Positions 5,987 to 7,739 of a stretch of 64,000 nt of DNA are shown here, one piece after another. Under the pieces are notes generated by a model, which saw only the letters and a list, made by a program, of their open reading frames with translations, did no database searches and had not been told where the DNA came from. Made by a program: the position numbers and the translations under genes. The stretch comes from Methylophaga sp. (GTDB lineage Bacteria; Pseudomonadota; Gammaproteobacteria; Nitrosococcales; Methylophagaceae): positions 1-64,000 of the forward strand of contig PAJP01000022.1 in assembly GCA_002706095.1 (NCBI GenBank), in the 5' to 3' direction. Positions within the stretch are counted from its first letter, which is position 1. Every line of letters starts with the position of its first letter.

Positions 5987-6820
5987 ATGTTTAAGTGGAT
6001 TGGCCTTATTCTAGGCTTTATATTACTCAGTACGATGAGTGTAGGATTACTCATTTTAGGAATTTTTGGCGCACTGATTGGCTTACTGTTTGGTGGTTTT
6101 GCTGACCGTATACGAGCGTATGGTCTGGGCGGTGCTAATCCATTTACAAGTCAAACCCGTCAAACAGTTTTTCTTGAAACTGTGTTTGTTTTGATGGGGA
6201 AACTAGCGAAGGCAGATGGTCGAATCAGCCAGATTGAAATCGATCACGTGGAAGCCTTTATCAAAAAAATGGGGATGTCGGGTGAGCATCGACAAGAAGC
6301 CATCCGCCAGTTTAAGCGAGGCGCAGAACCCGACTTTGATATTACAGACACAATGAATCAATTCAAACAACATTGTGGTAATACGTTTAATCTAAAACAA
6401 GTCTTACTGGTTTACCTGATAGTCATGGCCTTAGCCGATGGTAAGCTTGATCCACAAGAAAAAGATATTCTGGAACAAGTCTCTGCTCAGTTAGGATATA
6501 ACCGGGCCGAGTTTAACCGTATTCTGGATATGGTGATGAGCCAGGCAAGTTTCGCAAGAGGTCATCAGCAGCAATACTCTTCCGGTCCGCAGCGCTCTTA
6601 TTCTGATGAATTGGCCGACGCTTATAAAGCGCTTGGGTTGACTGAAAAGAGTTCTAATCAAGAAATTAAACGTGCTTATCGAAAACTGATGAGCCAATAT
6701 CATCCGGATAAACTCATGGGACAAGGCGTTCCAGAAGATATGATTGCCGTTGCCACAGAGCAAGCGAAAGAAATTCAGTTAGCATACGATTTAATAAAAA
6801 AACATCGAGAACAAAATTAA
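5987..6820 (+). CDS. djlA: DjlA-like co-chaperone with TerB and J domains
   Basis: This membrane-anchored DnaJ-family protein would stimulate DnaK at the inner membrane. The 277-residue product has a long hydrophobic segment with glycine-rich motif (residues 4-38) and a TerB-like helical domain (about 60-185). A short Q/S-rich linker leads to a C-terminal J domain with HPD at 239-241. This is the DjlA domain order. It starts 5 nt after ubiB without an obvious Shine-Dalgarno site, which suggests coupling to ubiB. Confidence 0.88.
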   Translation: MFKWIGLILGFILLSTMSVGLLILGIFGALIGLLFGGFADRIRAYGLGGANPFTSQTRQTVFLETVFVLMGKLAKADGRISQIEIDHVEAFIKKMGMSGEHRQEAIRQFKRGAEPDFDITDTMNQFKQHCGNTFNLKQVLLVYLIVMALADGKLDPQEKDILEQVSAQLGYNRAEFNRILDMVMSQASFARGHQQQYSSGPQRSYSDELADAYKALGLTEKSSNQEIKRAYRKLMSQYHPDKLMGQGVPEDMIAVATEQAKEIQLAYDLIKKHREQN

Positions 6821-6844
6821 CAATTTCGTTTTATTTATTATTAT
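6817..6844 (+). promoter_or_regulatory. Candidate sigma-70 promoter for the riboswitch/VPLPA-CTERM transcript
   Basis: TTAACA (6817-6822), overlapping the djlA stop codon, is followed after 16 nt by TATTAT (6839-6844). A transcript from here would begin around 6850-6852 and include the whole structured leader at 6870-6948. This is a pattern match only. Confidence 0.35.
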
Positions 6845-6869
6845 CTGTTTGGTACTATTTTTTCTGGAA

Positions 6870-6949
6870 ACACTTTAACCAAAGCCAAACTCGGTGTGAA
6901 CCAAGGACGGAAAGTTACAGACCTTATGATACTAAGGTGGCTGTACTGC
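6870..6949 (+). promoter_or_regulatory. Candidate class-I cyclic-di-GMP (GEMM) riboswitch
   Basis: The leader aligns with the GEMM-I consensus: AGCCAAAC (6883-6890) for GGGCAAAC, and AGGACGGAAAG (6904-6914) for GGGACGCAAAG. Stem P2 is 6890-6895 with 6900-6905, with one C-A mismatch and a GUGA (GNRA) tetraloop at 6896-6899. The second arm pairs ACAG/CUGU (6917-6920 with 6941-6944) and ACCUUA/UAAGGU (6921-6926 with 6933-6938), with a GG bulge. On my alignment the ligand-contacting G20 (6884) and A47 (6911) are kept, the 21-46 pair changes from G-C to C-G, and the 19 pair from G-C to A-U. The outer P1 helix is not convincing. SD AAGGA lies just downstream, so translational or transcriptional control is possible. 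Confidence 0.6.
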
Positions 6950-6972
6950 AATAATATCTAAGGAAAGAACAC

Positions 6973-7683
6973 ATGAACAAAATAGTTTTTATCGCACTGG
7001 CTTTATTTACTGGTTTAACTAACGCTGCTATAGCTGCAACAAGCTTATCAACTAATGGTTCATGGCAAACAGCTAATGGCGACCTAAGTTCATTGCTCGG
7101 CCAGTCTGCACCAGCTACATGGTCTTACGATACAGACCTAGCATCAGCGACCCTCTACTCATCATATGCTCTTCCAAGCACAGGCACAGTGAGTACATAC
7201 GTATCATCAAATTACGTTCTCTCAGGTACAGCTGCCCCCACTTTGTTTGATGGCAGCCAGTTTGCTCTCAGTATATTAGATAATACTATTGCAAACCTTG
7301 ATGCATTCAATACAGATATCGTTACATCAATGGTGAATAAAGGTCTCAATCCCGATATCACAGGTGATGCGATTCTATTTACAACTAGCACTCTTTTTCC
7401 GGTGTCTGAATTCACAGAAAGTTTTTCTCTGTCTGGCCTGATGATGTTTGATAAAGACTTTTTCACTGGCCCTATATCAACATTACCTTCTGCTGATATT
7501 CTGCTTGATAATGCATTATTCATTTATGCATCACTTTCACATGAAATTAACTTTGAAGAAACTGGCTTTGCTAGTTATATCCAAACGCCATCAGCAGTGC
7601 CTGTACCTGCTGCCTTATGGATGTTTGCTCCAGCATTGTTAGGTTTTCTTGGTTTGCGTCGCAAGGTGAATACTCAGGCTTAA
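6973..7683 (+). CDS. Secreted VPLPA-CTERM sorting-domain protein
   Basis: This predicted exported surface protein is 236 residues long. It has an N-terminal signal peptide (about residues 1-21, ending ..AIAA). The middle is Ser/Thr/Asn-rich and no enzymatic domain was recognised. The C-terminal tail is VPVP (209-212), then a hydrophobic helix, then RRK (229-231). This matches the VPLPA/PEP-CTERM sorting signal, which exosortase-type systems process before export to the matrix or cell surface. No exosortase gene lies in the window. It has SD AAGGA and sits alone behind the candidate c-di-GMP riboswitch, which suggests biofilm-linked expression. The function of the mature protein is unknown. 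Confidence 0.82.
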   Translation: MNKIVFIALALFTGLTNAAIAATSLSTNGSWQTANGDLSSLLGQSAPATWSYDTDLASATLYSSYALPSTGTVSTYVSSNYVLSGTAAPTLFDGSQFALSILDNTIANLDAFNTDIVTSMVNKGLNPDITGDAILFTTSTLFPVSEFTESFSLSGLMMFDKDFFTGPISTLPSADILLDNALFIYASLSHEINFEETGFASYIQTPSAVPVPAALWMFAPALLGFLGLRRKVNTQA

Positions 7684-7703: not shown

Positions 7704-7739
7704 AAAAAAGCCGTAGTGATAAACCTCTACGGCTTTTTT
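7704..7739 (+). terminator. Bidirectional rho-independent terminator
   Basis: An A6 tract, stem GCCGTAG/CTACGGC and a T6 tract form an intrinsic terminator readable in both directions. It lies between the convergent VPLPA-CTERM gene and fhs and can serve both. Confidence 0.9.

Follow-up and report, generated by a model that had tools for sequence, protein, structure and literature searches.

A c-di-GMP-I riboswitch before a gene for a VPxPA-tailed protein in Methylophaga, and the recurrence of this arrangement in the genus

A stretch of 64,000 nucleotides from Methylophaga sp. (contig PAJP01000022.1 of assembly GCA_002706095.1), a methanol-using bacterium of marine type, hereafter the window, carries a c-di-GMP-I riboswitch aptamer, for the biofilm signal c-di-GMP, upstream of a gene whose product ends in a VPxPA sorting tail. 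The leader is very probably a true c-di-GMP-I riboswitch, in a form that is standard in Methylophaga and its family, and sensing of c-di-GMP by it is well supported by sequence comparison. It would bind c-di-GMP through G20, A47 and C92, with the GUGA loop of P2 predicted to dock on a CU:AG step in P3; lying just before the ribosome-binding site, the aptamer would most likely control translation of a protein tagged for sorting by the exosortase XrtD to the cell surface or matrix, with a putative matrix function. The genome holds 14 copies of the aptamer, each followed by a gene whose product ends in a tail of this kind, which suggests that c-di-GMP may set the supply of this class of sorted cargo.

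The window aptamer and its locus

A covariance-model search gave a match to RF01051 (Rfam c-di-GMP-I) of 53.7 bits, above the gathering score of 35 and with an E-value of 1.1e-7 for the window, in agreement with the original prediction of a c-di-GMP-I riboswitch before an exported protein with a sorting tag, for which this very search had been proposed as a check. The aptamer had been placed at 6870-6949, shifted by 4 bases from its actual position (Table 1), and position 6817, taken as the start of the feature, falls in the end of djlA. The score with our lineage model R1 is high by construction, because the window sequence is itself part of R1. Numbering and the roles of the pocket bases are those that we take to hold for the V. 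cholerae aptamer Vc2, with positions mapped via the Rfam alignment. The ligand-contact bases G20 and A47 are kept, as had been noted, and so is C92; the 21-46 pair is indeed swapped to C-G. The P2 loop and the CCUU/AAGG duplex of P3 are present as described, so that by sequence and pairing a GNRA loop faces a P3 receptor with which it may make contact.

Table 1. Features of the leader, the gene and their surroundings, in window coordinates
Feature	Position	Strand	Remarks
djlA	5987-6820		On the 5' side of the aptamer
Weak promoter-like site TTAACA-16-TATTAT	6817..6844	+	Overlaps the end of djlA; 10/12 consensus bases
c-di-GMP-I riboswitch aptamer	6874..6953	+	RF01051 53.7 bits; lineage model R1 78.4 bits
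Ligand pocket G20, C21, C22	6884..6886	+	Window sequence and RF01051 match
Pocket pairs C21/C22 with G46/G45; A47; C92	6885/6886 with 6910/6909; 6911; 6949	+	
P2 hairpin	6890..6905	+	RF01051 match; GUGA loop 6896-6899
P3 arm	6913..6947	+	Tandem CU:AG step, 6923-6924 with 6935-6936
Shine-Dalgarno (SD) AAGGA	6960..6964	+	8 nt before the ATG
236-aa protein	6973..7683	+	Signal-peptide-like N-terminus, by eye
VPxPA C-terminal sorting tail (VPVPAALWMFAPALLGFLGLRRK)	7567..7680	+	Profile A1 75.8 bits; this tail is row 1 of A1
Terminator-like stem GCCGUAG/CUACGGC	7710..7733	+	T run to 7739; by eye; its loop of 10 is outside the limit of the terminator scan

The promoter-like site is not established, because four such sites occur in the region and 3.2 are expected by chance. 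The protein had been described as a VPLPA-CTERM protein, a description that stands as regards its tail family (with 120 genus matches scoring 60 bits or more) and the presence of XrtD in the genome, and fails at the curated models, the tail scoring 10.5 with NCBIfam TIGR03370 (VPLPA-CTERM; cut-off 25.35) and 13.4 with Pfam PEP-CTERM (cut-off 20.7). In a comparison of switch-linked ORFs only, the protein groups with three from another genus of the family (G026_C77, G028_C1 and G028_C2), all behind a switch. Searches gave no full-length match within the genus outside its own species, no match to plasmid relatives and no PDB relative at E up to 1. The three species most similar in djlA have djlA and fhs side by side, with the switch and the gene both absent from the interval; both are present in another genome of the window's own species. 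Gain or loss has probably affected the two as a unit. Strong djlA-type matches are found in 12 of the 24 genus genomes (on two contigs in G004), the others having weak J-domain matches only.

A family-wide form of the aptamer

RF01051 matches occur in 26 of the 58 genomes searched (the window's own and 57 relatives); of the 115 matches listed, one (G050 C124) was left out for want of a flanking stretch and 114 were analysed. All 82 aptamers of the genus have G20 and C21-G46, with P2 loops that are either GUGA (70) or GCGA (12), and C21-G46 is also found in 20 of 21 aptamers from other genera of the family, the 11 from outside the family being mixed. The window aptamer had been regarded as an unusual variant, a reading that is wrong because this pair and these loops are universal among the 82. 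Across all 102 aptamers with C21-G46, A47 is invariant, C92 is kept in 99 and a GYGA loop in 101, and P3 fits one of two sequence patterns compatible with CU:AG in every one.

The proposed covariation of the leader was borne out in an alignment (A2) of 40 of 46 diverse aptamers, five with an alternative P3 and G026_C84_4596 having been left out. Its structure has 98.5% of cells paired and both partners altered in 12 of 20 pairs, including, somewhere in the alignment, all six pairs of P2; among 500 shuffles none scored equally high on four measures and two did on a fifth, and slid versions of the structure reached at most 49.9% paired. The CU:AG step is invariant in 40/40 with variable flanking pairs, as are G49-C81 (alignment columns) and two core pairs. 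By contrast, a claimed change of the 19 pair to A-U found no counterpart: the column itself varies, and scanning the 5' flanks against the 3' flanks gave neither a covarying partner for position 19 nor any clearly covarying register. A conserved P1 helix was rejected in the same flank scan, its best 5-pair registers being about 0.5 complementary.

Docking of the GUGA loop on the P3 CU:AG step, which had been put forward as a receptor in place of the 11-nt motif, thus finds support as a trait of the lineage, the contact in three dimensions being a prediction. A crystal-structure survey describes GYGA loops as going with AG/CU-type receptors, if inexactly (PMC3494683). A looser loop/receptor sorter labelled four genus or family aptamers as 11-nt-like and was set aside because CUAAG within the P3 strand of the window aptamer satisfies its pattern as well. 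The family also provides dozens of natural copies, diverse in sequence, in which GYGA/CU:AG stands in for the GAAA form of this RNA.

Two kinds of departure were seen within the collection. An alternative P3 (CAGCUGU...CAGGGCUG) with the same GYGA loops occurs in 12 genus aptamers, for example G000:C21:218559 and G000:C23:11176. Position 20 is A, the base of cGAMP (GEMM-Ib) riboswitches, in G039:C1:3676232, G050:C83:212, L282, L286 and L287, the first two of which combine it with C21-G46.

Pairing with sorting tails and the exosortase

In a whole-genome tail profile search, 93 of the 96 switches in 15 genus genomes precede a VPxPA-tail gene and the other three are at contig ends; the count used the 136 tail rows that scored 38 bits or more and excluded those below this or unlisted, and a truncated tail of 33.3 bits at the G018 C140 switch was counted as a miss. 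In the window's own genome the pairing is complete (14/14). Seen from the tails, 93 of 120 scoring at least 60 bits have a switch and none of the 16 weaker ones used does, a division biased towards pairing because the profile, A1, was built from 20 switch-linked tails. A tail HMM run on adjacent ORFs recognised 76 of the 82 genus cases, which shows consistency and is no independent test, since 74 of the same ORFs went into it; in the remaining six the ORF is cut by the end of the retrieved stretch or contig, four of them being genes of 1125-1163 aa whose tails are listed in other searches. A tail ORF also follows 18 of 21 switches in other genera of the family, and 0 of 11 outside it, one of which has no readable ORF. 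The nine genus genomes without a switch, several of them incomplete, are the same nine without a tail match. Among 20 tail loci without an RF01051 match, a set that falls short of all 43 unpaired tail rows, R1 revealed one missed switch, a degenerate one in L245.

One exosortase match was found in the window's own genome, to XrtD (TIGR04152, 557.7 bits; cut-off 400), the VPLPA-CTERM-specific type, so that the partner expected for TIGR03370 members is present; GGDEF matches number 51. Two switches lie some 30 kb from XrtD, next to genes that resemble members of PEP-CTERM exopolysaccharide loci, some of these below curated cut-offs. Of 24 genus genomes, 14 have both XrtD above its cut-off and a switch, eight have neither, and one each has XrtD alone or a switch alone. 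The switch without XrtD above cut-off is in G021; XrtD alone is G015:C37:4179-5609 (561 bits), in a genome 83% complete where neither tail nor switch was found. In G005, G008 and G013, counted as lacking XrtD, exosortase matches do not reach the XrtD cut-off and have stops in what is a single frame in XrtD; neither tail nor switch appears.

Over a wider range the picture is more scattered. Among 80 named loci chosen for their tails, 29 hold c-di-GMP-I matches, 36 in all, of which 34 are followed by a tail-like ORF (by eye, in a sample picked for tails), including cases from Methylomonas, Methylobacter, Cycloclasticus, a Muproteobacteria record and a Geobacteraceae record. Position 21 is C in every one of the 36, with an offset of one base in the output for four RF03167 matches. 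One Methylomonas record (L239:665-3555) packs four c-di-GMP-I switches, each with a tail-like ORF after it, into about 3 kb. An even draw of 369 genomes of the class gave RF01051 in 67, a tail in 82 and both in 21 (hand count), a weak co-occurrence (Fisher p 0.052). At 29 class loci read, no tail was found after the switch in any of 26 readable ORFs, and all 29 have G21 and mostly GAAA loops, these loci being the highest-scoring switches, which favours the G21-C46 form. One class genome (G159) has a tail on the same strand as a switch, some 800 bases away. The weak co-occurrence and the tail-less class loci together indicate that tight pairing is characteristic of this family and occurs sporadically outside it.

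Taken together, we think it somewhat probable that most Methylophaga genes with strong XrtD tails have a c-di-GMP-I subtype dedicated to them (C21-G46, GYGA loop on CU:AG), over mature domains that seem unrelated to one another, and that c-di-GMP directly sets the supply of this cargo class. If so, the riboswitch regulon would be defined by the sorting tag of the cargo itself and would permit a direct test of exosortase cargo function, in which c-di-GMP or one switch is altered and the surface then followed.

Alternative readings and mode of control

Three other readings bear on the identity of the switch and its pairing. That the window RNA is a c-di-GMP-I-GGC variant (RF03167), or senses another cyclic dinucleotide, is highly improbable: RF03167 does match all 14 copies in the genome, three of them above its cut-off of 59, and its one-genome E-value for the window (1.9e-10) is lower than that of RF01051 (1.4e-9), but the window score of 49.2 falls below that cut-off and, within a shared clan and overall fold, the model consensus has G47 where all 102 aptamers with C21-G46, the window's included, have A47, just as the window and all 82 genus aptamers carry G20 and not the cGAMP-type A20. 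Decay of the window copy with loss of switching is very improbable too; two non-standard pairs relative to R1, and a location in a stretch limited to its species at the djlA-fhs place, are to be set against intact pocket bases and a leader (6851-6975) that recurs without a difference in another genome of the species. The switch-tail pairing could also be the by-product of one ancestral cassette duplicating, with no regulon being maintained, and tandem switch-gene copies do occur. When 93 proteins from genus and family were trimmed of 25 N-terminal and 40 C-terminal residues, one group held 34 of them, but they split into 23 groups in all (phmmer E 1e-4, single linkage), a procedure that could miss deep homology of the mature parts, and the window gene lacks both a full-length match in other species of the genus and a counterpart between djlA and fhs in three of them. 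We consider duplication alone improbable as the source of the pairing, and retain a c-di-GMP-I switch maintained before tail genes as the preferred reading.

How the switch acts is less firmly indicated. Control of the window gene at the level of translation is likely, as judged from the layout of its leader: the aptamer-to-ATG gap is short, 19 nt (13-48 nt in 94 leaders, selected for gaps of 11-59; four more have gaps of 1-4 via an upstream ATG), and the scan found no forward-strand terminator in it, which together point to translation. Action through transcription termination or mRNA decay is unlikely given the same two features, but Bc1, a c-di-GMP-I switch elsewhere, is described with terminators in its expression platform (PMC11218506), and no clear SD switch was found in the leaders. 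The whole window leader folds no better than shuffles (z 0.02), and a conserved SD-sequestering helix was rejected, SD pairing with the 40 nt upstream averaging 0.062 against 0.100 in shuffles (92 leaders); with the aptamer folded, modelled SD accessibility is higher in 14 of the 92 and lower in seven. With translation as the favoured level, the direction of control is a guess that leans slightly to ON over OFF, and the switch to matrix production that had been suggested is putative. In the free fold of the window the SD pairs with an upstream U run, as would suit an OFF switch, with a probability of 0.66 that 8 of 20 shuffles also attain. In M. nitratireducenticrescens GP59 only one riboswitch, Ribo5, before a PEP-CTERM gene, is described as not higher in biofilm (PMC12530212), a pattern that agrees with ON for most c-di-GMP switches and is no demonstration of it.

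A sequence-variable hairpin directly before the aptamer was seen in the 41 of 94 leaders examined (gap of at least 24 nt), with a median z of -2.04 against -0.37 for controls further upstream and values below -1.5 in 25/41 against 7/41; the window leader has no such hairpin.

Relation to known systems

The window switch is a further member of the c-di-GMP-I class, and for one Methylophaga species such switches have already been published in front of VPLPA-CTERM or PEP-CTERM genes. M. nitratireducenticrescens GP59 is described as having seven c-di-GMP riboswitches, four of them before such genes (PMC12530212), and three adjacent c-di-GMP switches are described in which the gene of the first is among the most expressed (PMC5918138). 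As recorded for GP59/JAM1, Ribo4 precedes a VPLPA-CTERM gene and Ribo5-7 precede PEP-CTERM genes beside exopolysaccharide genes (PMC12530212, PMC5918138); the genus is that of the window, whereas species and gene differ, and the available parts of these accounts report no general tail pairing, XrtD or RNA subtype. A general pairing of c-di-GMP-I with XrtD cargo, the regulon pattern surrounding the window switch, was not found in print in the literature searched, which covered few subscription journals.

With RF01051 the window switch shares a score above gathering, the pocket bases and the P2/P3 architecture; it departs from the model, like the rest of its family, in having C21-G46 where the consensus is G21-C46 and a GYGA loop plus CU:AG step where it is GAAA. 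From RF03167 it is separated by A47, even though some paralogues in its own genome pass the cut-off of that model. With respect to the XrtD/VPLPA-CTERM system (TIGR04152, TIGR03370), the window tail scores below the TIGR03370 cut-off, whereas XrtD is above its own cut-off in the genome and the order of the tail, P-x-P-A followed by a hydrophobic stretch and RRK, is the same.
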